Virus record (IMG/VR): IMGVR_UViG_3300007346_000270
Coordinates: 1-23,090 of that record
Source of the DNA: a virus
Direction: 5' to 3' (one strand)
Length of the DNA: 23,090 bases
Shown: piece after piece, positions 2,719 through 22,244 of the stretch
Numbering within the stretch: the first letter of the stretch is position 1
Layout of the letters: each line of letters starts with the position of its first letter
Notes under the pieces: model-generated
The model's database searches: none
The model's input: only the letters and a program-made list of their open reading frames with translations
What the model was told of the DNA's origin: nothing
Translations under genes and position numbers: made by a program

Positions 2719-3293
2719 CTTTTTGTTGTGGGTGGTTGTTTATCTCTTAATTTACCTTTAAATAATTCCACAATAGCCTTTTTTTCTGCCGGTGATTTTG
2801 CATGAGCCCACATATATAAATAAGATTTTTGGAATGCCTCCATTTCTTTTTTCTTAATCTCAATTATTCGTTTAATAAACTCAACATGTTTTTCATTTAA
2901 TTCAAAATCAACATTTAGTTTGGATGCTATTAACGCTAATTCAACAATATTATTGGTGTCGTATGCTTCTTTGGCTAATCTATAAAAATCTAAATATTCT
3001 TCGGTTTTTATTATATCTGGATGTGTTTTTTTCATAACATCTCTAAAAACCTTTTTTAACATTTTTTTTGTTTCAGCATCTAACTCATCATCTTGTATTA
3101 ATTTTTCTTTTTTTGGTTCTTCTTTTTTTGGTTCGGGATTTTCTTTTTTCTCATTTGGGCCTTCTCCCAAAATATCCTTCATAAATTCAGTTGTGTAATT
3201 ATCCACTATTTCTTGTTTATACTCATCACCTAACACCAACAAATCATACTCCTTTAATAACCTCTGTATTTCTAATTTTTTTAATTTATCCAT
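2715..3293 (-). CDS. J-domain-like (DnaJ-type) protein
   Basis: This encodes 192 residues. Residues about 74-113 read as a J-domain helix II, HPD loop and helix III: KKVFRDVMKKTHPDI with HPD at 91-93, followed by YLDFYRLAKEAYDT. Residues 46-66 form a low-complexity Lys/Glu/Pro linker (KKENPEPKKEEPKKE). The C-terminal third is helical and charged. J-domains stimulate the ATPase of Hsp70/DnaK, so the protein probably recruits the host DnaK to phage substrates. The J-domain is internal rather than N-terminal, and zinc-finger and client-binding domains are missing. The ATG at 3293 overlaps the end of the PrsW-like gene by 8 bp, so the two form one minus-strand operon. Confidence 0.65.
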   Translation of the reverse strand: MDKLKKLEIQRLLKEYDLLVLGDEYKQEIVDNYTTEFMKDILGEGPNEKKENPEPKKEEPKKEKLIQDDELDAETKKMLKKVFRDVMKKTHPDIIKTEEYLDFYRLAKEAYDTNNIVELALIASKLNVDFELNEKHVEFIKRIIEIKKKEMEAFQKSYLYMWAHAKSPAEKKAIVELFKGKLRDKQPPTTKS

Positions 3294-4014
3294 CTTTGTT
3301 TTCTATTTTTTTATTTCTAAGGTTATTTGAAGCAAATTTGGCACCCAATAAACCAATAAACAACATTAGTATCATTATTGACCCAGATGCTTTGCCTGAG
3401 GTACTTAAACTATAATTCCATAAACCATGATAACCAACACCACATAACAAACCAATAAAAGAATAAACAAACCCCCTTATTTTTGGGTTGGATGCCATAA
3501 AAATATCAAAAACTGACCTATTATTGTATTTATTAATTTTAACTTTACTTAAAGAAATCCAATAACCAGTAAACATACCAAAAAGCATATGTGCCAATGT
3601 TGATGTAAAGGTTCTTGTTATTAAAACAAATTCACCGAATCTATAAAAATAACTAACGTTTTCAATCATAGCAAACCCTAAACCAACCATACCCATATAA
3701 AACATGGTCCCTATTGGGTGTTCTTCCTCGTCCCTGCCTAACATTTTATATATAATAAAATAAGAAATAAATTTCGCTATTTCTTCATGTGGGCCAACTT
3801 CAAAAAAATAAAAAGTAAACTCAGAACCAAAATAATCATCACCATAAGGTAATAATAAATTAATTATTGTTAAAATAGGTATCGATAAAATACCGCCTAT
3901 AAAATATTTTAATGATTTTGTTATTGATATCGACTTGTATGGGGAAGTTAAATAAATAACCAACACATAAATTAATGGGGGAAATACCACCATTATAAAA
4001 TTTAATAATGACAT
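3286..4014 (-). CDS. PrsW-family intramembrane metalloprotease-like protein
   Basis: This encodes 242 residues from the ATG at 4014. A TTG two codons upstream is also possible. The protein is strongly hydrophobic with about six to seven membrane segments. All PrsW signature motifs are present, numbered from the ATG: HEEIAKF (Glu 77-78), GFAMIENVSYF (Glu118-Asn119), TLAHMLFGMFTGY (His142) and GVGYHGLWN (His196). PrsW proteins cleave membrane substrates within the bilayer. B. subtilis PrsW performs site-1 cleavage of an anti-sigma factor. The C-terminus is short and basic. The gene is followed with 8-bp overlap by a J-domain gene and is expressed from a divergent promoter shared with 4058-4453. 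The substrate is unknown. Candidates are a host anti-sigma factor or a membrane defence protein. Confidence 0.82.
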   Translation of the reverse strand: MSLLNFIMVVFPPLIYVLVIYLTSPYKSISITKSLKYFIGGILSIPILTIINLLLPYGDDYFGSEFTFYFFEVGPHEEIAKFISYFIIYKMLGRDEEEHPIGTMFYMGMVGLGFAMIENVSYFYRFGEFVLITRTFTSTLAHMLFGMFTGYWISLSKVKINKYNNRSVFDIFMASNPKIRGFVYSFIGLLCGVGYHGLWNYSLSTSGKASGSIMILMLFIGLLGAKFASNNLRNKKIENKDG

Positions 4015-4028
4015 AAGCAATTTTATTT

Positions 4029-4501: not shown

Positions 4502-6964
4502 TTATTTTTCAATATCGACAGTTACATCACCTTTTGAAAAACCAATTTTAATTGTGTCACCTTCAACCAAATCACCATCCAACATTCTTTCAGAGATAGG
4601 GTCTTCAAGGTATTTTTGTATAGCCCTGTTTAATGGTCTAGCCCCATATTTTTCATCATAACCAGCCTCAACCAAATATTCTTTTAATTTAGGCGAGATT
4701 TTTAATTTATAACCCATCTCATCAATTCTATCACTTAATTCTTTAAGAGGAATATCTAAAATTTTCTTAATATCTTCTTTTTCAAGAGGTTTGAAGAAAA
4801 TAATCTCATCTAATCTATTTAAAAATTCAGGTGAAAACGCCTTTTTAAGTTCATTATCAATAACAGATTGTTTAATATCATCTAAATTATCGTTTTTAGT
4901 TTTAGTACCGAAACCAACACCTGTTCCAAAATCTTGTAATTTTCTAGCCCCAACATTAGATGTCATAATAATTAAAGTATTTCTAAAATCTACTTTACGA
5001 CCTAAACCATCAGTTAAATGTCCATCATCTAAAACTTGAAGTAAAACATTAAATACATCAGGGTGTGCTTTTTCAATCTCATCCAATAAGATTACAGAAT
5101 ATGGTTTTCTACGAACTTTTTCAGTTAATTGGCCTCCTTCTTCATAACCAACATATCCTGGAGGTGCTCCAACCAATTTAGATGTTGTATGTTTTTCCAT
5201 ATATTCAGACATATCAACTCTGATAACAGCATCAGACGTACCAAACATTTCTTCAGCTAATTTTTTAACCAAATAAGTTTTACCTACCCCAGTTGGGCCA
5301 ACAAATACAAATGAACCGATTGGTTTGTTGTGTGCTTTAATACCCATTCTGTTTCTTCTAATCGCCTTAGATACTTTTTCAACAGCCTCATTTTGTCCAA
5401 TAACCTTAGAAGATAAAATAGTTGCCATGTTTTTAAGTCTAGATAAGTCATCTTGTGAAACTTTTGTCACAGGAATACCTGTTACCATAGAAACAACGTT
5501 TGCAACATCTTCTTCAGTAATTTTTTTCCTAACAGAGTTTAACTCGTTTGTCCAAACTTTAGTTTCAATATCTAACTCTTCTTTTAAGTATCTTTCCTCG
5601 TCTCTTAATTTAGCCGCCTCCTCATATTTTTGTGCTTTAACAACATCAATCTTTTTTTGGTCTATAGCTAATATTTGGTTTTCCAAATCTAATATATGTT
5701 TTGGTGGTTTAAGATGTACTTGTGACCTAGCACCCACTTCATCTAAAATATCGATAGATTTGTCAGGTTGTTCTCTATCAGTAATATATCTATCAGCTAA
5801 TTTAGCACAAGTTTCAACAGCCTCTTCAGTATAAATTACTTTATGGTGGTCTTCATACTTATCCTTAATATTTTTTAATATTATTAAAGTATCCTCCAAA
5901 GATGGTGGGTTAATAGTAACTTTTTGGAATCTTCTTTCCATTGCCCCATCTTTTTCGATGTTTTCACGATACTCATCCAAAGTGGTTGCTCCAATACATT
6001 GGATTTCACCTCTAGCTAAAGCTGGTTTAAGAATGTTTGATGCGTCTAAAGATCCTGATGCGTTACCTGCACCCATAATTGTATGGATTTCATCTATAAA
6101 AAGAATAACATCATTAGCTTTTTCTAATTCTTGCATAATACTTTTAAGACGTTCCTCAAATTGGCCTCTATATTTAGTTCCAGCAACTAATAAAGCCAAA
6201 TCCAAAGAAACCACTCTTTTACCAAAAAGAACTCTAGGACACTTTTTTTGTACAATCTTTAATGCCAAACCTTCAACTATGGCTGTTTTACCAACCCCAG
6301 GTTCACCAATTAAAATAGGATTATTCTTTTTTCTCCTACTTAATACTTGAGAAACTCTTTCAACTTCCTCATCTCTACCAATAATTGGGTCTATACCACC
6401 TTTAGCGGCAATATCAGTAATATCCCTACCAAAATTATCTAAAACTGGTGTGTTGGACTTATTTGAACTTTTTTTACCTTTTAGTCCACCCATTTCATCG
6501 AAGTCGTCTGCTATACTCATATTTATTTCTGTTTTTGTTTCTAATAATTTTTCTTTAAAATTTTTATAATAAATACCCTGATGGTTTAATACTTTTGTAC
6601 AATCAAGTTCTTTATCTTTTAAAATAGCTAACATTAAGTGTTCTTCGTTGATAAAATCGTCACCAAATTTATCTGATTCCATCTCGGATATGTTTAATGC
6701 TCGCTTTGAACATTCACTTAAAGATACTAATTTTTTTTTAATTTGTGGTGTTTTTATTTTTAATCTTAAAAAAGCTTCTACTTTTGAACCCAAATCTTCA
6801 CAATCATAATCCATAGAATTAAAAGCATCAATAACTTTATTTTTTTTATCGTTTAAAATGCTTAATATCATATGGTCTGGTGTTATACTATCAGCCCCTA
6901 ACCTATTAGCTTCTTTAAAAGATTCTTTTAATACCCACTTTATTTTTTCATCTGTTGGTTTCAT
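4502..6964 (-). CDS. clpC: ClpC-type AAA+ unfoldase
   Basis: This 820-residue protein has the full length and order of bacterial ClpC. It has a Clp-N repeat domain (about 3-140) and a first AAA+ module with GEPGVGKT (220-227), VILFIDE (286-292) and arginines after AMER (about 344-345). A UVR-like middle segment, [19 protein letters not shown] (446-464), follows. The second AAA+ module has GPTGVGKT (556-563), VILLDE (624-629) and sensor-2 GARPL (774-778). Residues 682-686 GVGFG form the VGF loop that docks ClpC on ClpP, which ClpB disaggregases lack. No ClpP or adaptor is in the window, so it probably works with host ClpP or one encoded elsewhere. Neighbours are PrsW-like and J-domain genes. 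No exact ATATTTAT element precedes the ATG at 6964, so it may be an early gene. Confidence 0.9.
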
Positions 6965-7296: not shown

Positions 7297-7583
7297 TAAA
7301 AAGAACACAAAGAGAAGATGGTGTTATTGAATGTTTAATTGATTCTAGTAACATTTTACTAACAGAATGGGATAAACCTAATAAAACATTAAAAGTAACG
7401 TTTAAGGCAGGTACACAATACCTATATAAAGACGTATTAGAAAGGGATTACGTTAGATTCGAAATATCTGAAAGCCAAGGTTCTATTTTTAATAAAACAT
7501 TTCAAAAATATTCTTTTGAAAAACTAGATAAAATAGATGTTACAGAAATTAAAGAATTGATTAAAGAAAATAAACGTGATTAA
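7287..7583 (+). CDS. KTSC-domain protein
   Basis: This encodes 98 residues. Positions about 16-70 follow the KTSC-domain pattern: a Trp-Asp turn (EWDKPNKTLKVTFK), AGTQYLYKDVLERDYVRF, and then the S-x-G-x-x-F-N-K signature (SQGSIFNKTF) followed by a Tyr-containing helix start. The domain is named from a lysyl-tRNA synthetase fusion and is common as a stand-alone protein in phages and bacteria. Its biochemical role is not established, with nucleic acid binding proposed in general. The C-terminal 25 residues are a charged helix. It ends in a 4-bp convergent overlap with the minus-strand 109-residue gene. Confidence 0.75.
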   Translation: MAVVKRTQREDGVIECLIDSSNILLTEWDKPNKTLKVTFKAGTQYLYKDVLERDYVRFEISESQGSIFNKTFQKYSFEKLDKIDVTEIKELIKENKRD

Positions 7584-7909
7584 GCCTTAGTATAAGCAAT
7601 TACATCAGTAACCTCCATACATGGTGGGTTTGCTTCAGAATTACTCATAGTATCAATAACAAAAACTGGTCCTTCGGTATGAACTATATATTGGAGTTCC
7701 TTTTGTGATTCCCCATACCCCAAAAATTTAATATTAACATCCTCATAACCATTTTCATTTAATTTTTTAGAAATAAGTGATTTTATACTCTCACCAGTAC
7801 ATTCTAGTTTTTTAAGTTCGAAAGCTAAGTCAATAGCACTTACTTCTTTAACTCTTCTTTCAGTTAAACGTTCTAATTGTGATTCAGTTATTTTAATTAC
7901 TTTTTTCAT
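7580..7909 (-). CDS. Small protein with capsid-targeting-like N-terminus
   Basis: This encodes 109 residues. The first 22, MKKVIKITESQLERLTERRV followed by KE, form an amphipathic basic helix containing ITE-S, LTE-R and VKE-V. Each fits the (L/I/V)-x-E cleavage rule of T4-type prohead proteases, and the whole resembles the short targeting peptides of phage internal head proteins. The rest (about 24-109) is a compact alpha/beta domain that I do not recognise (INENGYEDVNIKFLGYG-like strand pattern, then VFVIDTM). It is downstream of the 186-residue gene with a 3-nt gap, in one minus-strand operon. I infer a packaged internal protein. Confidence 0.6.
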   Translation of the reverse strand: MKKVIKITESQLERLTERRVKEVSAIDLAFELKKLECTGESIKSLISKKLNENGYEDVNIKFLGYGESQKELQYIVHTEGPVFVIDTMSNSEANPPCMEVTDVIAYTKA

Positions 7910-7912
7910 ATA

Positions 7913-8473
7913 TTAATAATTTTCGTCATATTCTTCATCATACTCATCAGGGTCAAAACCAGATTGTTTTCTCTCAAAATCTTCTGTATCTATACCTAAT
8001 TCGTAAGCTCTACCTTCTTCAAATGCTTTATGATAAGTTTCCTCTGAACCTTCAGAATAACCTTCTTGATAACCTTTTTCAAGTCCATCACTATAACCCT
8101 CTTCATATGAATTATCCATTATTTCTCGTTCACGTTCTCTAAACTCATATTCTAAATCTTCTCTTGATTCACCTGAACTTGCACCTTCATTATAACCCTC
8201 TTCATAACCAGCATTCAAGCCCCTTTGGTGTCCTGCATCAAAAGATATTTCTGATAAACCATATAATGATGATAATAGATCTTTTAATTTATCTTTTGTT
8301 AAACCAAGATTATATATAGAATTGATTAAATAACTTTTGTTACCTAAACTATGGTATCCAAAATCTACTAAACCACTTAATTCTTGGGAAATTTCAGATT
8401 TACTCATTGGGTTTACATCAGAAGTCCAATCAAAATCATTTTCTTTTAGTATTTTCTTAATTAAATTTTTCAT
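7913..8473 (-). CDS. NDFDW-motif protein with targeting-like N-terminus and GYxEG repeats
   Basis: This encodes 186 residues. The N-terminus MKNLIKKILKENDFDW combines a basic amphipathic peptide ending in L-K-E (9-11) with the NDFDW motif (12-16) found at each module junction of the divergent 1072-residue protein. Residues about 75-165 contain YEEGYNEG, YEEGYSDG, YQEGYSEG and related Gly-Tyr-Glu repeats, like those of Yae1-type and other coiled acidic proteins. The tail is very acidic (DPDEYDEEYDENY). Expression is from a minus-strand ATATTTAT element 11 nt upstream, back to back with the polyprotein gene. I infer an internal head protein cleaved after Glu11. The function of the mature part is unknown. 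Confidence 0.65.
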   Translation of the reverse strand: MKNLIKKILKENDFDWTSDVNPMSKSEISQELSGLVDFGYHSLGNKSYLINSIYNLGLTKDKLKDLLSSLYGLSEISFDAGHQRGLNAGYEEGYNEGASSGESREDLEYEFREREREIMDNSYEEGYSDGLEKGYQEGYSEGSEETYHKAFEEGRAYELGIDTEDFERKQSGFDPDEYDEEYDENY

Positions 8474-8508: not shown

Positions 8509-11500
8509 ATGAAGATAAACGAGAAAGAAATTGAACAAGCATCTAAAGATATAGATTTATCTGGTTTTAAGATGCAAGACAATCTTAACCCAAAGATATG
8601 GGATAAAGACCAAAAAATGAAATCTGAGGTTAAAAAAAATCTATTAAAAATAGCTGACGATTATTTTGAATCTTTGGAATTACCTGGGGTAGATATTGAA
8701 GATGTTACCATGACAGGTTCTTTGGCTAACTATAATTGGTCCAAATATTCTGATGTAGATTTACATATCGTAGTGGATTATGATGATTTACCAATGGAAC
8801 GTGATTTGGTTCAAGATTTTCTTAAATCTAAAAGTTCTGCTTGGAATAAAGAACATGATGTAACGATTTATGGTTATGACGTTGAATTATATGTTCAAGA
8901 TATTAACGAACCACACCATTCAACGGGTGTTTATTCTGTGTTAAATAACGAATGGAATATTAAACCAGAAAAAAAGAAAATCAGTATCGATGATAAGTCG
9001 GTTAAAGATAAAGCAAATCTTTTAATGGATAGAATAGAAGATATCTATGATGAGATGGATGAGGTTGAAAATGAAACTACTGTTAAACGTGTTGATAAAT
9101 TAACTGATAAAATTAAGAAAATGCGTCAATCTGGTTTGGATAAGGGTGGTGAATTTTCTGTTGAAAATATGGTTTTCAAGGTTTTACGTAGAAATGGTAT
9201 GTTGGATAGGTTATATGACATTAAAACCGTTGCTTACGATAAATCAGTTACTTTAGAATCAATAAACGAGAGTGATTTTGATTGGACAGAAAACTTACCT
9301 GATATATTAAGTCATAATGAAGATTGGATTTTGGTAAATGACGTAAACCCAAGTAGTATTGAAGAGGGTATAGAGATGCAAGAATTTTTATTTAAGTTAG
9401 GTTATAAATGGAATGCTGGTGAGTTAAAACACAATAAAATCTATATGATGTTTCATTACAATAAAAAACATAGTGAAAATGAATTACTTTATCTCGAATA
9501 TAAAGGAAAAGAAATAGGGTTGGGTAATGAATATTTGGATCCTAATAACACTATGTATCAATACCGAAAATTCCCTAAAATTTATTATTGGAGTAAAGTA
9601 AAACCAAACAGAATAACAGAATCTAATGACTTTGATTGGGCAAAGGATATACCTATAACTTACATCCATATAGCTAACGATATGTACAGAAAGTCTGAAG
9701 GTGCTTTTCCGTTTGATAGTGAGAAAATGTCTTTTTCGACTTACGTAACCAAAGAGTATGGTGTTGATGACAAGGATATCATACATAAAGTTTGGCGTAA
9801 ATATAGGTTTTTAATGGGTTGGGATAGGAAAGATTTATCAGAATCTAATGACTTTGATTGGACAAAGGATATAAAACCAATTGTGTCAGTAGGTGATGTA
9901 TTTCACACTAGAACAGATTTTACACCTAAAGATTTGAATGCTGAGGTTACTTTTGAAATTGTTGATATATCACCTGATGGTAAATGGGTTAGATTTGCAC
10001 ACCATAAAGGTTCAATGGATAGAGGAACTTATATCGATATTGATAGAATCAATAAACATACTATGTCCATGGGTTGGGATAGGTATGGTTATAATGGAGC
10101 TAACTCAACAGATATCAACCAAGTTTTAAAAAACATAAATACTGGTTTTTGGAAAAGGGTTAATGTACCTGGTTATCTACAAAGAAACCCCGAAGAATAT
10201 GATAGATTAATAAAATTAGGTAGTAATATAAACGAATCCAACGATTTTGATTGGGCTAAAGATATTCAACCTGAACCTGAAACACCTGAAGATAAGATTC
10301 ATGTTGGTGCTGTATATAGAGTTAACCCAAACAGAAATATTCCGTCTATAGATATGTTACTTAAAGTATATAAAGTTGATAGAGATGTCCATTATGAGAT
10401 AATTGTATCTAACGATGAGGATGAACTTATTGGTGAAAAAAGTTATGTTAGATACAATGAGGCTGTAGGATTATTAAAACCTAAAAAAACTTATGTCCAT
10501 AATGGAGATGGTTCTATGACCGAAAAAGAGTTGGAACCTTATTGGTTATATTTACCATACCACTCGGAACACATAACAGAATCCAATGATTTTGATTGGA
10601 TTACTGACATACCAGCAAAAAGCCCTTATAGATACTTTGAGATATATGCTTGTTGGAATTCTTTCTATGATGAAGAAACAGGTGAAGATGAGTGTACAGA
10701 TGGTGGTTCTTATTTTGTTAAAATACCTGAACATGTTGTAGATGAAATATGGGATTACACAGCTGAAGACCAATATTATGCTGGACCTGGTGATGAAGGT
10801 GAAGATGTTATTGAGTGGTGTATTGAGAATAATTTAATAAATGGTGATGATGTAGATATGTTTGACTACGTTACCGAATTGAGTGAAACTGATTATTGTA
10901 ACTCTTGGGGTAAATGGAATCCAAATGATGAGGGTTTGTGTTGGTCATCAGTTAATGAATCTAACGAATTTGATTGGATAAATGATATTGATGATAGTAA
11001 ACCACAAAAAGGAACTGCTTGGGCAATAACAGGTATTAAGAATGAGACTGACTCTATCCAATGTCAGGAATTCTTATTTAATCTTGGTTTTGAATGGGGT
11101 CTCGGTAAAATTATTAATAATAATTCTAAATATATAAGACGAATATCTTCTATTTGGGAAGATGATATCAGAAAACATAGAATTACCTATGGTAGTAATT
11201 TAAGTTCTGATTTTGATAAACTTATACAAAGAACCAAAGAAAAATCTAACCAAAATAAATTATATCATTATGAATGGGTTAACGGTGAAACAAAATTAAA
11301 AGATATTATTTATTTAACTGATAACATAAACGAATCCAATGATTTTGATTGGACTAGGGACATTCAAGTAACCCCAATAGACAATGGACCAATATGTGAA
11401 GCATTGTATGGTGAAGTTGTTAGATATTTTAGAAATAAACAACCAATAAGTTATGGAGATTACTATTATAGTATGGATGGATATAGTGGGACTATAGTGT

Positions 11501-11727
11501 GGGGATTTAATGATACTGATGAATATGTGGTTTATGCAACACCTTATTGGGAAGGTGAATGTGAGTTAAATATTGATATTCAAGGTGATATGGGTGATTA
11601 TGAAACATTAGATTATATTGAATTACCTAAATTTGAATATGTTGAAGCATTACATCAATGGTTAGAAAATGAATACCCAAAAATAGTAGTAAAAAGGATT
11701 AAAGACTTAGGTCCTTTACCTGAATAA
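8509..11727 (+). CDS. Nucleotidyltransferase-headed modular polyprotein, predicted prohead-protease substrate
   Basis: This encodes 1072 residues. Residues 1-254 contain a minimal nucleotidyltransferase core, with MTGSLANYNWSKYSDVDLHI giving Gly70-Ser71 and Asp82-x-Asp84. Glu126 in DVELYV, or nearby Asp124, is the likely third carboxylate. Seven junctions follow, each (I/L/V)-(N/T/S)-E then S(N)(D/E)FDW, with the Glu at 254, 371, 445, 576, 691, 817 and 942. They divide the chain into modules of 117, 74, 131, 115, 126, 125 and 130 residues. Modules 255-371 and 818-942 are paralogous (QEFLFKLGYKW versus QEFLFNLGFEW). The other modules are not recognised. Glu followed by Ser fits T4 gp21-type cleavage, (L/I)-x-E. 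The stand-alone genes at 7913-8473 and 16114-16476 carry the same NDFDW near their N-termini. I infer that the protein is packaged and cut into eight proteins. An uncut tandem-repeat protein is the alternative. Confidence 0.75.
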   Translation: MKINEKEIEQASKDIDLSGFKMQDNLNPKIWDKDQKMKSEVKKNLLKIADDYFESLELPGVDIEDVTMTGSLANYNWSKYSDVDLHIVVDYDDLPMERDLVQDFLKSKSSAWNKEHDVTIYGYDVELYVQDINEPHHSTGVYSVLNNEWNIKPEKKKISIDDKSVKDKANLLMDRIEDIYDEMDEVENETTVKRVDKLTDKIKKMRQSGLDKGGEFSVENMVFKVLRRNGMLDRLYDIKTVAYDKSVTLESINESDFDWTENLPDILSHNEDWILVNDVNPSSIEEGIEMQEFLFKLGYKWNAGELKHNKIYMMFHYNKKHSENELLYLEYKGKEIGLGNEYLDPNNTMYQYRKFPKIYYWSKVKPNRITESNDFDWAKDIPITYIHIANDMYRKSEGAFPFDSEKMSFSTYVTKEYGVDDKDIIHKVWRKYRFLMGWDRKDLSESNDFDWTKDIKPIVSVGDVFHTRTDFTPKDLNAEVTFEIVDISPDGKWVRFAHHKGSMDRGTYIDIDRINKHTMSMGWDRYGYNGANSTDINQVLKNINTGFWKRVNVPGYLQRNPEEYDRLIKLGSNINESNDFDWAKDIQPEPETPEDKIHVGAVYRVNPNRNIPSIDMLLKVYKVDRDVHYEIIVSNDEDELIGEKSYVRYNEAVGLLKPKKTYVHNGDGSMTEKELEPYWLYLPYHSEHITESNDFDWITDIPAKSPYRYFEIYACWNSFYDEETGEDECTDGGSYFVKIPEHVVDEIWDYTAEDQYYAGPGDEGEDVIEWCIENNLINGDDVDMFDYVTELSETDYCNSWGKWNPNDEGLCWSSVNESNEFDWINDIDDSKPQKGTAWAITGIKNETDSIQCQEFLFNLGFEWGLGKIINNNSKYIRRISSIWEDDIRKHRITYGSNLSSDFDKLIQRTKEKSNQNKLYHYEWVNGETKLKDIIYLTDNINESNDFDWTRDIQVTPIDNGPICEALYGEVVRYFRNKQPISYGDYYYSMDGYSGTIVWGFNDTDEYVVYATPYWEGECELNIDIQGDMGDYETLDYIELPKFEYVEALHQWLENEYPKIVVKRIKDLGPLPE
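9618..9651 (+). repeat. 34-nt direct repeat, copy 1
   Basis: This is identical to 9840-9873 except for one G/A difference (GATTGGGC versus GATTGGAC). It spans the junction between modules. The copies are 222 bp (74 codons) apart, so recombination between them would remove one module in frame. Confidence 0.85.
9840..9873 (+). repeat. 34-nt direct repeat, copy 2
   Basis: This is the second copy of the junction repeat at 9618-9651, with one mismatch. Confidence 0.85.
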
Positions 11728-12093: not shown

Positions 12094-13785
12094 ATGAAAA
12101 AAAGTACATTAAATAGAATGTTAGAATTAGCTGACATTAAACCAACATTAAAAGAGAATAAATTAGAAATATCTAGTTTTGGTTTGGTTAAGGAGGCGGT
12201 TAATGGTAAAACATATGCTATAGTTAGAGAAGGTAAAAAATATTTTATTAAAGAAGCTAACACTAAACAAAACCTAACCGAATCTGATTTTGACTATGTT
12301 GGTGGTTTAAGTAATAAAGGTAAAAAATATTACCACTCTTTTAGTGAGGCAACAAAACAATTAAATTTAGTTTTTGAGGAAATTAATAATCATTATGATG
12401 TTAATTTTATTAATATTTTAGAATCTGATGATGTTTTATCAGAAAAAAAATATGTATTGAAATTAAATAAAAAGAAAAAAGAAGAACCAACTGAAGAACC
12501 TAGTTTTGATATGGGTACTGAAGAAGGTGGTGATACTGAAGAAGAAGAATCGTTTGATTTTGGTGATGAATCATCTGAAGAAGGTGGTGATGAAGAATTT
12601 GACTTTGGTGATGAATCGTCTGAAGAAGGTGGTGATGAATTTGATTTTGGTGATGAAGGGGAAGAAGATACTGAAGAAACTGATGATGAATTTGATTTTG
12701 GTGATGAAGGGGAAGAAGATACTGAATCTGTTGATAATCAAGAAGAAGGTGGTGATAACATCAAAGATATCCAAAGTACAACAGGTAAACTAGGTCAACA
12801 ACTTAGAGATGTTGAGGATTTATCGTCTGATATGAAAAAATGGGTTGCTAAATCTGTATTAGCGGCTTTAGATTTAGATAATATGGATTCTAATGATAAA
12901 GATGATGTATTAGATACTATTAAAGATAGTGGTAATAAAGAACAAGAAGTAGAAGAATCTTATGATTCTTATATGGATGATAAAGAATATGATGATTACG
13001 ATTCTTATATGGGTGAATATCCAGCTGGTTATTTAGGACACCTATCTAATGACCAAGTAGAGGAATCTTATGATTCTTATATGGAAGAAGATAACCCAAA
13101 TATTGGTGGTGATGAAGAATTAGAAGATGATATGTTATTGTTGGATGATGAGTTATATTCTGATGAAGAAAAAGAGACATTATACCCACAAAGAGCAAAC
13201 AAATATAGACCATCAGCATCTGAAAGAGCAAGAAGACAAGCTGATAGAGATATTACAAAACATTTTCATAGAAATGCAGAACCTGGATACGATTCAAAAC
13301 CTGTAGAAAAATGGGCAAAACATAAATTACCATATGATACAAGATTTGACTCTTTAGAAGAAGATGATGATATTTTCTCAAAAAAAGATATTGATATGAA
13401 TGCAGAACCAAAAACAAGACCTACAACAAGACCTTCTGAACCTGGTGTTAAACCTGATAGAGGTCCTGGAAGAGAAAAACCTTCAAGAAGACCATTTAGA
13501 GTTCCACCTAAAATCGACCCAAATGATCCTGATGCACAACCAGCACCAAAAGCTAGAAGACGTGAATATGATACATATATGGATGATGTAAGGATGGCAC
13601 CATCTCCAGCACCAGCAAGACCAAAAACATCACCAAATCCTGATGTTAAACCTGGTAAACCTGGAACTGATAGACCAAGTCCTTCAAGAAGACCTTTTAG
13701 AGTTCCACCAAAAATAGATCCAAACGACCCTGATGCACAACCAGCACCAAAAGCTGATTACGATTCAGACGTTGAATTCGAATAA
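12094..13785 (+). CDS. Large acidic repeat-rich protein, candidate head-core or scaffold component
   Basis: This encodes 563 residues. Residues 1-63 end in LTE-S followed by DFDY (64-68), a diverged copy of the polyprotein junction. Residues 52-54 (IKE) and 19-21 (LKE) are further possible protease sites. A folded-looking part (64-125) is followed by an acidic run with four FDFGDE repeats (starting 154, 169, 183, 200). Next come VEE-SYDSYM at 286 and 322, then a Pro/Arg-rich tail with a 25-residue repeat copied exactly at 463-487 and 530-554. Extreme acidity, multiple candidate protease sites and lack of a stable-looking fold are typical of phage prohead core proteins. That role is inference. 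Compositional bias is strong compared with neighbours. Confidence 0.6.
   Translation: MKKSTLNRMLELADIKPTLKENKLEISSFGLVKEAVNGKTYAIVREGKKYFIKEANTKQNLTESDFDYVGGLSNKGKKYYHSFSEATKQLNLVFEEINNHYDVNFINILESDDVLSEKKYVLKLNKKKKEEPTEEPSFDMGTEEGGDTEEEESFDFGDESSEEGGDEEFDFGDESSEEGGDEFDFGDEGEEDTEETDDEFDFGDEGEEDTESVDNQEEGGDNIKDIQSTTGKLGQQLRDVEDLSSDMKKWVAKSVLAALDLDNMDSNDKDDVLDTIKDSGNKEQEVEESYDSYMDDKEYDDYDSYMGEYPAGYLGHLSNDQVEESYDSYMEEDNPNIGGDEELEDDMLLLDDELYSDEEKETLYPQRANKYRPSASERARRQADRDITKHFHRNAEPGYDSKPVEKWAKHKLPYDTRFDSLEEDDDIFSKKDIDMNAEPKTRPTTRPSEPGVKPDRGPGREKPSRRPFRVPPKIDPNDPDAQPAPKARRREYDTYMDDVRMAPSPAPARPKTSPNPDVKPGKPGTDRPSPSRRPFRVPPKIDPNDPDAQPAPKADYDSDVEFE
12553..12708 (+). repeat. Acidic FDFGDE repeats
   Basis: This holds four copies of FDFGDE separated by 9-12 Glu/Ser/Gly/Asp/Thr residues, within the 563-residue protein. 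The DNA is a run of GAA, GAT and GGT codons, prone to slippage. Confidence 0.85.
13480..13554 (+). repeat. 75-nt coding repeat, copy 1
   Basis: This encodes 25 residues starting PSRRPFRVPPKIDPNDPDAQ. It is identical at the protein level to 13681-13755. The six nucleotide differences are all third-position synonymous changes. Confidence 0.9.
13681..13755 (+). repeat. 75-nt coding repeat, copy 2
   Basis: This is the second copy of the repeat at 13480-13554, 201 bp (67 codons) downstream in the same frame, directly before the acidic C-terminus DYDSDVEFE. Confidence 0.9.
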
Positions 13786-14213: not shown

Positions 14214-16016
14214 ATGGCAAAGAAAAAAGAAGAACCTTATTTATTAAACGATGAAGAACATTTAAGTGAAGTAGATACACAAATTACTAAAACTTATAAT
14301 GATAAAGATCAAGAATCAAATCCTGACGAAGTTTCTAAAGCTATTAAAAAGGCCAACCCTGAAGATGTATCATATAATGAAGATGGTAGTATTTCAGTTA
14401 AGGAAGGTGATGTAAATGAAGTTGAAAAAACACAAGTAATGAAATTCGATATTAAGAGTAGTTCTGATGTTAAAGCTTTACAACAAATGTTAGATAAGGG
14501 GGTAGATTCTAAAAAAATGGGTGTTGGTACAGATGGAACAATATCTGTATCTGAGAATAAAATTAATTTGACTAAAAAAGAAATAATGGGTATTATTAAG
14601 GAGAATAAAAATTTTGTATCAACAAAATCGGATTTATTAAAAACAATTAAAAACAGAATAATATCAGAATCAAGAATGAACGATAACGTAAGAAGGAAGT
14701 TTGAGGGTGGTGATAACGACTATAATGATATTTTGGGTCAAGATTTAACAAATCAATTGGCACAAGAATCTTTTAGAGAAATTGCTGACAATATTAGACA
14801 AAAAACAGGTAAGGAAAACCCATCTTTTATGGAAATCCAACAATTTTTGAGTAATTCTCTATTGGAGGCAGCAAAAGAAGAATATAGGTTAGGAACAGAA
14901 AACCTAGAAAGAAAGGCTGTTGCCATGATTAGAAGACAATTTAACATCCCTGAGGATGCTGTTGAATTTGATGCAAAAATTATGGGAATACCTCCAGCAA
15001 TGTTGGGTTTACCTAGTTCAACACCACAGACACAATTAGACCAAATTGCTAGACAACAAGGGTTTAAGATTGGTGATATTAAACGTGAAGGATTAAAGTT
15101 TGATAAAGGTAATAAACCAAAACCTGAGGGTAGAACAGAAGAACAAATTAAACCAGCATTAAAAAGAAGGCGTTTAACGAACTCAATGATGCATGGGGCA
15201 GCAAGAAAATCACAAAATTTACACCATTTAGATGATGAATTAAGAGAAACCAACCCAACACTAGGAAGAAACTATTCTAACGTTATGGCAGCAAACGATG
15301 CAAACTATTTCTTAATGGATGATGATTCTATTAAACAACAAGGAATGGGTGGTATTCATGCAGGAAACGTTAAATTAGACATTTCTAATCCTGATAAACC
15401 AAAAATTATAGCACAAGGAATTATTTTCCCAATTCTTTTACACGAATTAGCTAAAGGTGTTGTAGAATTAATGTCTTTACAAGGTTTAAGTGATGATGTT
15501 GAAGTAAGAAAATATGTTTTAGATAAAACTGATAATTTGGAATCAGAAACTAATGATATTCGTTTGGGTACAAAAATTTGGGAGAAATTTGTTACACAAA
15601 TACCAACTGAAAACCAAGAAGTTATTTCTTTAACATGGAGTATTTTACAAGAATTACCTGATAGTGAATTTAATTCTGTTATTGAGGGGTTAATTAAAGG
15701 TGATGGTAATGCACAACAAAAAGTTAGAGGATTTGCTAATGAAGCTTTAGAAGAATTACGAGGTGAGGCAGCTGAAGATGTATTGTCTAGTTATAGTGAT
15801 GATTATGAGGATGAAAATGAAACACCTGAATCTGAAGAAGAAGATGTTGAGGATGAATTATTGAATAGTTTACTTAAACAAAAAGATGATACAGAAGAAG
15901 AGGTTGATTACGAATCTATGTCAAAAGTAGAATTACAAAATCTTATTGATGATGCTTTGGATGCTGGTGATATGGAATTAGTTAGACATTTAGGTTCAAT
16001 ATTGAATAAGAAATAA
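14214..16016 (+). CDS. Large putative virion protein, unknown function
   Basis: This encodes 600 residues. Residues 1-150 are charged and low in complexity, with IKE-N (about 126) and ISE-S (about 146) sites that fit the prohead-protease rule. From about 155 there is a mostly helical core, with NDILGQDLTNQLAQESFREI and KRRRLTNSMMHGAARKSQNL. In the same core are GIIFPILLHELAKGVVELM, with a conserved-looking His-Glu, and then helices to about 520. The last 80 residues are acidic (EDENETPESEEEDVEDE) and end in a short helix. It is the last gene of the operon before the terminator at 16056-16090 and precedes terminase. A head or neck structural role is inferred from position. I recognise the middle region as recurring in other large phages, but no function is known to me. 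Confidence 0.6.
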   Translation: MAKKKEEPYLLNDEEHLSEVDTQITKTYNDKDQESNPDEVSKAIKKANPEDVSYNEDGSISVKEGDVNEVEKTQVMKFDIKSSSDVKALQQMLDKGVDSKKMGVGTDGTISVSENKINLTKKEIMGIIKENKNFVSTKSDLLKTIKNRIISESRMNDNVRRKFEGGDNDYNDILGQDLTNQLAQESFREIADNIRQKTGKENPSFMEIQQFLSNSLLEAAKEEYRLGTENLERKAVAMIRRQFNIPEDAVEFDAKIMGIPPAMLGLPSSTPQTQLDQIARQQGFKIGDIKREGLKFDKGNKPKPEGRTEEQIKPALKRRRLTNSMMHGAARKSQNLHHLDDELRETNPTLGRNYSNVMAANDANYFLMDDDSIKQQGMGGIHAGNVKLDISNPDKPKIIAQGIIFPILLHELAKGVVELMSLQGLSDDVEVRKYVLDKTDNLESETNDIRLGTKIWEKFVTQIPTENQEVISLTWSILQELPDSEFNSVIEGLIKGDGNAQQKVRGFANEALEELRGEAAEDVLSSYSDDYEDENETPESEEEDVEDELLNSLLKQKDDTEEEVDYESMSKVELQNLIDDALDAGDMELVRHLGSILNKK

Positions 16017-16113: not shown

Positions 16114-16476
16114 ATGAAATCAATAAAACAAATAATTAGAGAAGAAATCAACGATTTTGATTGGACATCAGAGATTAAACCGATGAAACCTGAAATGGAA
16201 TGGTTAAAATCTAATTTTGATAACCTTAAACCAATTGTTAAAGGTATTAGAACCTATTATGTTGATAACGAAAGAAAACCACTTTTTTATTATCAGAATG
16301 AAGAAAATGGGGATGTTTACATAAATTATGGTAGAATTTGGTCGGTTTTAAAAAAGGATTTTGGTCTTAATCGTACTGAAATTCAGGAACTTATAAAGAG
16401 GTGGTTGGAAGAGACCTATAATTTAATGGGACTTACACCGAACAAGTTAAAAATGCTCTTTCTTCCTTTGTTGTAA
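16114..16476 (+). CDS. NDFDW-motif small protein with capsid-targeting-like N-terminus
   Basis: This encodes 120 residues. The N-terminus MKSIKQIIREEINDFDWTSEIKP joins a basic amphipathic peptide ending I-R-E (8-10) to NDFDW (13-17), as in the minus-strand gene at 7913-8473 and the junctions of the polyprotein. The length equals that of the polyprotein modules (115-131). The C-terminal part is helical (FGLNRTEIQELIKRWLEETY). The final codons are odd: a 30-bp segment encoding EETYNLMGLTP is repeated 66 bp later, in the same frame but behind the stop codon. The annotated C-terminus, NKLKMLFLPLL, may therefore be a recent replacement. I infer a packaged internal head protein with a stand-alone own promoter. 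Confidence 0.65.
   Translation: MKSIKQIIREEINDFDWTSEIKPMKPEMEWLKSNFDNLKPIVKGIRTYYVDNERKPLFYYQNEENGDVYINYGRIWSVLKKDFGLNRTEIQELIKRWLEETYNLMGLTPNKLKMLFLPLL
16410..16439 (+). repeat. 30-bp direct repeat, copy 1
   Basis: This matches 16476-16505 with two mismatches. It encodes ETYNLMGLT near the end of the 120-residue gene. Confidence 0.85.
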
Positions 16477-21443: not shown

Positions 21444-22244
21444 ATGAATTTTGGAACATTAAAAGATATTTTCCTTGAGAAATTAATTGAATCTTATACA
21501 TCTGAAGATACTTTAGGCAAGGATTTATATAAAAAATTCTTAAAAATATTAAAAGAAAACGAAACTTTAAAAACTAGTTTTATTGTTTTTAAAAATATAG
21601 AAAACAAAACAATTACTAGTGAAGTTAAAGCCATAGAATACCTAAAAGAACACAAATCTTTATTCGATAAATTCCGTGGTGATAAGTCATTATCAAAAAA
21701 TTTAGAAAAATTAACAACTTTGTTGGAGTCTTACGGAATTGATTATTCAAACAAGGAAGTTAAACCAATTCACAAATCTTTACAGGATTTTATATTAACA
21801 CAAAAAAATATAAACACATTAGATTCTTTACAAGAAACACAAGATGTGTTGGTTAATTGGTTGTTAACTGAAAAAGTTTTGGTTAAAGAAACAACTAACG
21901 ATGAATATATTAAAAAAGGGATTAACCCTAAAAACTTTTTAGATATTGCTTCTAAAAAGTTTAATGAAAAATGGGGTAATTCTTTAACAGAAGAAGAAAA
22001 GTCATTATTAAAGGTTTTAAGGGAAAGAAATGAAGAAAAAAATAAAGCCTTAGTAAAAGAATTAGTTAAAGAGAATATTTCTTTAGTGAATCAGCTTTTA
22101 GAAGAAAATGCTGAAAACATTACAATTAAGTCAAAACTACTAGAAACTAAGGATGCTATTTATAAAATGGCTGAAAATAACGACAGTTTCAGTAGAAACA
22201 TACTGAAATTGTATGAACTAAAGAAAAACCTTAAAAATGATTAA
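21444..22244 (+). CDS. Helical charged protein, candidate prohead core or scaffold
   Basis: This encodes 266 residues, almost entirely helical and rich in Lys, Glu and Leu, with no membrane segment. Sites such as LIE-S (14-16) and LLE-S (near 92) follow the (L/I)-x-E rule but could be chance in such a sequence. The middle holds LQETQDVLVNWLLTEKVLV, and the C-terminal half is coiled-coil-like (KNKALVKELVKENISLVNQL). In T4, core and scaffold proteins follow the portal gene, and this position plus composition suggest a similar role. The final 8 nt overlap the holin gene. No family is recognised with certainty. Confidence 0.5.
   Translation: MNFGTLKDIFLEKLIESYTSEDTLGKDLYKKFLKILKENETLKTSFIVFKNIENKTITSEVKAIEYLKEHKSLFDKFRGDKSLSKNLEKLTTLLESYGIDYSNKEVKPIHKSLQDFILTQKNINTLDSLQETQDVLVNWLLTEKVLVKETTNDEYIKKGINPKNFLDIASKKFNEKWGNSLTEEEKSLLKVLRERNEEKNKALVKELVKENISLVNQLLEENAENITIKSKLLETKDAIYKMAENNDSFSRNILKLYELKKNLKND

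Follow-up and report, generated by a model that had tools for sequence, protein, structure and literature searches.

The acidic protein of 563 residues (hereafter P0001) that is encoded at positions 12094-13785 (+) of IMG/VR virus record IMGVR_UViG_3300007346_000270 raises the question of whether it is trimmed by a protease inside the phage prohead and, if so, at which of its residues; the window, i.e. the whole stretch of DNA that has been analysed, is this virus record of 23,090 bases. A first-pass annotation of the sequence had pointed to the string LTESDFDYVGG at residues 61-71, likened to the junctions of a polyprotein, to VEESYDSYM, starting at residues 286 and 322, and to FDFGDE repeats, and had proposed cuts before Ser64, Ser289 and Ser325; all of these strings are found at those residues. 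Here, we have compared P0001 with its homologues, and we propose, with confidence that is evenly balanced, that P0001 is a prohead component, the N-terminal targeting propeptide of which, about 110 residues long, would be cut by a gp21-like S77 protease, while the acidic remainder would stay in the head.

Judged by its genes, the window phage is T4-type and P0001 lies in the head-gene region: the window encodes a T4-type portal (PF07230, E 2.2e-73) and a terminase (PF03237), and the nearest portals among annotated phages, at about 39% identity, are those of Microcystis phage Mel-JY01 and Flavobacterium phage immuto. The window record stops before the protease gene; an S77 prohead protease (PF03420) is found in the records of six of the seven relatives, the seventh being an 11.8-kb fragment, and one relative (G001) has both the PF03420 protease and a copy of P0001 that is 99% identical. 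According to excerpts of PMC9026906, the T4 protease gp21 cuts after L/I-X-E. The capsid proteins of the clade (gp23-type, assigned by PF07068 in the one that was scanned) carry LINE|T at residues 57-61 in both of the rows compared, near the position of the T4 maturation site, where the bar marks the putative cut between P1 and P1'; in a weak HMMER alignment (9.8 bits, i-Evalue 2.9), residue 61 onward matches residue 12 onward of the mature gp23*, and the motif is thus about 11 residues off the T4 cut. At the corresponding place, matched by eye, the Microcystis phage has LISE|A and the Flavobacterium phage IVSE|A. Given the specificity of gp21 and the capsid motif of the clade, the specificity that we expect here is for [LI]xE with a small residue after it.

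The conservation of such triples has been followed in an alignment of 17 rows that include the N-terminus, i.e. the window and 16 homologues. The rows were drawn from the window and 22 homologous loci, of which six were omitted: L011 and L012 (coordinates and profile scores identical to those of L010), L046 (protein identical to that of L045), L008 (99% identical to the window), and L051 and L053 (without the N-terminus). The first two homologue scans did not select on the stretch 61-64; a wider scan added L073, L077, L079 and L081, giving a set of 21 rows, and these four are biased toward retaining that stretch, because the patterns of the wider scan included ESDF[DN]Y.

In the 17-row alignment, four [LI]xE triples are present in at least nine rows, and all four are located within residues 19-118 of P0001:

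Residues 19-22 (12148-12159, +): candidate site 1, LKE|N, in homologues IKE|S, INE|G or LNE|S; from the alignment.
Residues 61-64 (12274-12285, +): candidate site 2, LTE|S, the first site of the first-pass annotation; from the alignment.
Residues 108-111 (12415-12426, +): candidate site 3, ILE|S, in the linker that follows a small domain; from the alignment and a shuffle test.
Residues 115-118 (12436-12447, +): LSE|K, a conserved LxE followed by Lys; LxEK in 17/17 rows.

The other 445 residues hold no [LI]xE at this level, and the inclusion of all alignment columns, with the insertions of the homologues, adds no further triple in at least nine of the 17 rows; the next best are IKE at residues 52-54 (7/17) and an acidic I[DE]ED (6/17). 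The former, with A, S or T as the next residue (residues 52-55), has not been accepted as a site. The confinement of the conserved triples to residues 19-118 is what an N-terminal propeptide would display, rather than a scaffold chopped along its entire length.

At site 2, [LI]xE is followed by a small residue in every one of the 17 rows (Ser in 16, Gly in one), and in 20 of the 21 rows after the wider scan, where the four extra rows were partly selected on the site and the miss is L079. Positions P3, P1 and P1' do not change, in contrast to P2, with seven residue types, and P4, both of which vary freely; by this pattern, prohead cleavage is the most likely cause of the strict conservation, and Ser64 stands as a candidate cut. 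At site 1, Glu is present in 16 and the full [LI]xE in 12 of the 17 rows. At site 3, [LI]xE occurs in register, as ILES or LLES, in 13/17 rows, and the other four have another [LI]xE a few residues off in the same linker. An [LI]xE with a P1' other than Lys is found within 40 residues of the preceding helix in 21/21 rows, whereas 2000 shuffles of the linkers gave 10.2 rows on average and at most 17 of 21, in a control more lenient than the observed count in that it accepted any [LI]xE; since the linker sequences are related, this result is not a true probability. The 40 residues were taken in most rows, the end of the linker being mostly unrecognised by the script. The LSE|K triple is a weaker candidate, because its P1' is Lys. 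By comparison, no [LI]xE[SAGNT] reaches 90% of the rows in the alignments of TerL, the portal, the protease, the nucleotidyltransferase module or a 157-residue open reading frame (ORF); in this comparison between proteins, 19 rows of P0001 were used, including L053, which is without the N-terminus, hence the count of 18/19 there.

The number of motifs in P0001 is a different matter. In 20,000 shuffles of its sequence, 5.98 copies of [LI]xE are expected and six are observed, so that nothing can be concluded from the mere presence of the motif. [LI]xES occurs twice (0.44 expected, P 0.07), [LI]xE[SAG] three times (1.07, P 0.09), [LI]xE[SAGN] four times (1.34, P 0.04) and [LIVM]xES four times (0.75, P 0.006); with any hydrophobic residue or Ala at P3, the count is four (1.42, P 0.05), and the definitions other than [LI]xES and [LIVM]xES range from P 0.01 to 0.09. 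The signal that rises above chance is the conservation of the sites, not the number of motifs.

P0001, as outlined from its ORF, composition, homologues and AlphaFold2 (AF2) models, has an isoelectric point (pI) of 4.36 and consists of Asp and Glu to 26%; residues 22-563 have a pI of 4.32. Past residue 110, an acidic repeat tract, a helical domain, a disordered region with YDSYM and a basic Pro/Arg-rich tail follow one another:

Residues 1-110: leader and small N-terminal domain; net charge +2.
Residues 1-21 (12094-12156, +): leader with a predicted helix at 3-12, ending in LKE; a candidate propeptide resembling a capsid targeting sequence (CTS); from AF2 and the alignment.
Residues 27-102 (12172-12399, +): small predicted domain of three strands and then a helix from residue 83, including DFDY-GG-NK.
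Residues 111-563: body after the leader and domain; pI 4.21, net charge -73.
Residues 154-205 (12553-12708, +): acidic tract with four FDFGDE repeats, starting at residues 154, 169, 183 and 200; predicted local distance difference test score (pLDDT) mostly below 50.
Residues 222-280 (12757-12933, +): three predicted helices, with the densest run of invariant columns in the family; from alignments and AF2.
Residues ~463-487 and ~530-554 (13480-13755, +): Pro/Arg-rich motif, present twice in the basic C-terminal tail; from sequence and alignment.

The net charge is -48 over residues 131-221 and +5 over residues 438-563. The FDFGDE repeats, previously taken as a hint of cleavage, are an acidic tract, and nothing was found that ties them to cutting. 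In L081, a 339-kb relative (L081:5920-7397), the P0001-like N-terminal part and, by eye, the helical part are two separate ORFs; all three candidate sites are retained, as ISE|N, INE|S and ILE|N.

The AF2 models are of low to moderate confidence, with block means of pLDDT of 58-83 for residues 31-100 and predicted template modelling scores of 0.25 and 0.44; pLDDT falls below 50 at residues 14-26 and at nearly all of residues 105-227. The segments around sites 1 and 3 are thus probably disordered, as far as the models indicate, and the candidate cuts 21|22 and 110|111, both missed by the first-pass annotation, appear better placed than 63|64.

In the mechanism that we propose, the leader helix and the small domain (about the first 110 residues) would bring P0001 into the prohead, where the S77 protease would cut after the Glu of [LI]xE near residue 21 and in the linker, at residue 110 (or 117), while a cut at residue 63 would probably be secondary, within the propeptide. 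The propeptide would be removed and fragmented, the mature product, residues 111-563, would be kept in the head, and the VEES strings at 286 and 322 would be left uncut; the predicted ends are residues 22, 64 and 111, with none at 289 or 325. What we infer here is that P0001 is packaged into the prohead and cleaved, in which order and how far the cuts proceed, and what becomes of the remainder.

Several observations weigh against this proposal. Site 61-64 sits inside the predicted small domain, where a cut would need unfolding or a prior cut, and this is the main argument against 63|64 as the primary cut; site 1 is without [LI]xE in 6/21 rows; and in L079 the LxES before DFDF is lost, with an IKES a few residues upstream. 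The invariant LxEK at 115-118 demonstrates that a conserved LxE can exist without a plausible P1', and ClpA, not an expected substrate, has one conserved IVEG. The homologues are related, and so their counts are not independent events, and the capsid and scaffold comparisons comprise two rows each. Lastly, P0001 matches no PHROG at E <= 0.1 (the PHROGs being without a curated cut-off) and no Pfam family over its cut-off, and no proteomics for this clade is among the papers listed by the literature searches.

The alternative that survives best, which we consider possible but rather unlikely, is that LxES at 61-64 is a structural element of a conserved N-terminal domain and is not cut at all, with P0001 being an uncleaved virion or assembly protein. 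Residues 61-71 do lie within the small alpha/beta domain of the AF2 models, the DFxYxGG-N that follows the site is almost equally invariant, and in L079 DFDFxGG is present without the LxES; moreover, the rate at which [LIV]xE precedes DF[DE]Y in proteins outside the family is that of the background, and the [LI]xE count equals that expected by chance. On the other hand, the combination of fixed P3, P1 and P1' with free P2 and P4 is the pattern of a protease site, the IKES still occurs nearby in L079, and sites 1 and 3 recur in segments that are probably disordered.

The acidic character of P0001 also brings to mind the T4 core proteins gp22, gp67 and gp68, which are acidic. It is unlikely, in our view, that P0001 is a scaffold-like core protein of this kind, wholly destroyed by the protease so that only peptides remain. 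Its acidity and largely low predicted order, its position in the head-gene region with the terminase and the portal, and the Asp/Glu-rich composition shared with the gp22-type candidate of the clade are in favour of such a role, and the protease involved would be of the same kind. The total destruction of gp22, gp67 and gp68 is described in excerpts of PMC9958956 and PMC9026906; in P0001, however, no [LI]xE is found in at least 9/17 rows past residue 118, and the absence of conserved sites there speaks against such a fate, whereas the scaffold-like protein of the clade has nine [LI]xE shared between its two rows, with A or S after four of these. Furthermore, that separate gp22-type candidate is encoded, in two relatives, downstream, just upstream of the gp23-type capsid gene; a phmmer search with it (E <= 1e-5) returned counterparts in two further contigs of the clade and in the phages of Microcystis and Flavobacterium; copies of P0001 were not among its matches.

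Another candidate core protein, by its sequence, is the product of the 266-residue ORF directly after the portal (21444-22244), a position that in T4 is that of gp67 and gp68; it has three conserved [LI]xE, followed in the window by N or T, and S, A, G, N or T follow these sites in 14-15 of 15 rows.

The likeness of LTESDFDYVGG to a polyprotein junction leads to the question of whether cleavage and the DFD motif belong together, and the junction that served for the comparison has proved to be real:

8509-11727 (+): modular protein of 1072 residues, the origin of the junction motif; from its ORF and a library search.

This protein comprises eight modules, seven of which each start with S(N)[DE]FDW after [IVL][NTS]E, i.e. 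the ORF holds seven [IVL][NTS]ES(N)[DE]FDW junctions, and its sequence looks like that of a packaged polyprotein. Throughout the ORFs of the clade, DF[DE]W has an [LIV]xE within the seven residues before it in 27/31 cases (orthologues counted separately), as compared to 9.2% at positions sampled for the background and 10-15% with three similar-looking strings as controls. DF[DE]Y follows [LIV]xE in 15/27 cases, and 14 of these 15 are orthologues of P0001; outside these orthologues, the count is 1/13, about background. The fourth residue after site 61-64 is Tyr in 20/21 rows and Phe in L079, which is not the DF[DE]W form, and L079 retains DFDFxGG in spite of the loss of the LxES that immediately precedes it. 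Given its position inside the predicted domain, the background rate elsewhere and the case of L079, DFDY is best read as part of the domain, probably a fold element. Thus, of the earlier suggestion that DFD(W/Y) is one element shared by packaged proteins, the Trp form stood and the Tyr form did not. That [LI]xE|S(N)DFD(W/Y) is a single composite signal of the clade, with the cut before it and DFD(W/Y) at the new N-terminus marking the product or docking it in the head, appears quite unlikely.

Some further features of the modular protein and its motif were observed. Module 1 is nucleotidyltransferase-like (phrog_36119, with NTP_transf_2 below its cut-off), and the relatives that have the whole of it are shorter (249-636 residues); modules 2 and 7 resemble each other, module 6 also occurs in another multi-module protein (L033:4920-7763), and several relatives have module 8 fused straight to module 1. 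Small proteins of the window start with MKNLIKKILKEN-DFDW (7913-8473, -), MKSIKQIIREEIN-DFDW (16114-16476, +) and MKKVIKITESQLERLTE (7580-7909, -); similar starts, MKKxIxLTExDLxxLVxKIIxE, recur in relatives, in several ORFs close to the protease and capsid genes, and are, by sequence, candidate capsid-targeting leaders.

The other two cuts that had been proposed are located at the VEES strings:

Residues 286-289 (12949-12960, +): VEES, the second site of the first-pass annotation, probably not a cut site; from the alignment.
Residues 322-325 (13057-13068, +): VEES, its third site, unconserved; from the alignment.

At the former, [LI]xE occurs in 1/17 and [LIVM]xE in 13/17 rows, the homologues having mostly VEE, MEE or LEE; at the latter, the counts are 1/17 and 2/17. 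Of the 35 YxxYM repeats in the 17 rows, 12 come after [LIVM]xE but not one after [LI]xE, which speaks against YDSYM as part of a junction, and conservation, together with the identity of P3 (mostly V or M), speaks against Ser289 and Ser325 as cut sites; the conservation of [LI]xE in homologues holds for the first of the three proposed sites and fails for the other two. We read the VEES and YxxYM strings as repeats of another kind; a YDSYM-like string, preceded by KEE or EEE, is also found in two short ORFs elsewhere in the clade. The reading of the locus as a whole with cuts at Ser64, Ser289 and Ser325 and with DFD(W/Y) as the common mark of packaged proteins is consistent with the existence of the three strings, with [LIVM]xE at 286-288 in most rows and with the DF[DE]W count, and is nevertheless very improbable in view of the VEES, YxxYM and DF[DE]Y counts. 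Equally hard to credit is that a composition rich in Ser and acidic residues has produced the likeness to the polyprotein junction by chance, since the chance-level [LI]xE count and the P of 0.07 for [LI]xES that favour it are set against a site with S or G after it in all 17 rows and against the linker result.

Searches for relatives have placed P0001, as far as they extend, in a protein family for which no description was found; as a kind of system, P0001 would be a T4-type prohead substrate. For a 126-residue N-terminal model, the search of solved structures gave no match at E <= 0.001; that of BFVD gave two, A0A8S5L9J2 (Myoviridae sp. ctPuP5; E 6e-5) and A0A6J5L781 (uncultured Caudovirales phage; E 3e-4), with 29-30% identity, both of them named 'uncharacterized protein'. 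Of the homologues, L054 has no PHROG or Pfam match, and L010 has weak DnaJ-zinc-type or unnamed matches only. No match was obtained by tblastn against annotated phages with P0001, its consensus or parts of three diverged members, and no convincing relative by family profiles among the ORFs that flank the portal in four phage records and those near the relative of a 600-residue protein in a fifth; the best profile match outside the family (E 0.14) is in a contig of the clade. In bacterial and archaeal genomes, none of the 389 pattern-matching stretches encodes a relative of P0001. Among the papers listed by the literature searches, none is about this clade, judging by titles or the starts of abstracts.

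Compared with known systems, the clade resembles the gp21 system of T4 in its S77 protease, its gp20-type portal, its gp23-type capsid protein and the L/I-X-E with a small P1' at most of the candidate sites; unlike in T4, where excerpts of PMC9026906 give propeptides of 7-65 residues, the candidate propeptide of P0001 has about 110 residues and several sites, and searches of the phage collection and the libraries turned up no relative of P0001. The T4 internal proteins IPI-IPIII have a CTS, i.e. a propeptide of about 10-20 residues that ends in L/I-X-E, and P0001 has a candidate for such a leader, with [LI]xE near residue 20 (at 19-21) in 15/21 rows; the mature internal proteins are basic, whereas P0001 is acidic, has further sites downstream and has no sequence relation that was found to them. 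A precedent for such a propeptide is found in the giant phage SPN3US, the propeptides of which are N-terminal and comprise 111-254 residues, some of them with several copies of the motif at which they are cut, according to excerpts of PMC10052503 and PMC5694885; the motif, however, is A-X-E in SPN3US and S-X-E in phiKZ (excerpts of PMC5694885), rather than L/I-X-E, and no sequence relation of these phages' proteins to P0001 was found.

Additional observations concern the neighbouring genes. A protein of 600 residues (14214-16016) has ISE|S at residues 150-153, with [LI]xE in 18/19 rows, 16 of them with a small P1', just under the conservation threshold; its C-terminal part has a relative in each of two uncultured phages, both about 640 kb in size. 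The window also encodes a DUF285 protein (252-1199), a DUF2827 protein (1507-2718), a PrsW-type membrane protease (3286-4020, -) and a Clp-type ATPase (4502-6964, -). In a 226-kb relative, pieces of a second, diverged gp23-type protein are located about 30 kb apart (L028:14781-15095 and L030:5533-6154), and the N-terminal one of these carries QLINE|V where the maturation site would be expected. Glutamine-synthetase-like genes (PF00120, PF03951) lie between the portal and the prohead protease at L022:2297-3376 and L035:4193-5302; in G001, other ORFs are listed between the two. Insertions of intein type occur in the uncultured phage L059 (30496-32220, 19779-23939 and 17916-19697): that of the prohead protease has LAGLIDADG_3 over and Intein_splicing below the cut-off, while the portal and a further ORF have Intein_splicing over it. 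A terminase insertion in the relative L009 (L009:10775-13954) likewise has LAGLIDADG_3 over and Intein_splicing below the cut-off.

If the proposed trimming of P0001 is correct, it would add to the substrates of T4-type prohead proteases an acidic protein with a long, multi-site propeptide, unrelated to the substrates of T4 as far as the searches extend, from a clade of which no cultured member was found, and it would offer a rule for predicting the packaged and trimmed proteins of these large phages. Should the composite signal, quite unlikely as it is, also exist, it would allow whole strings of modules, as well as the body of the acidic protein, to be packaged in a single chain and set free within the prohead.

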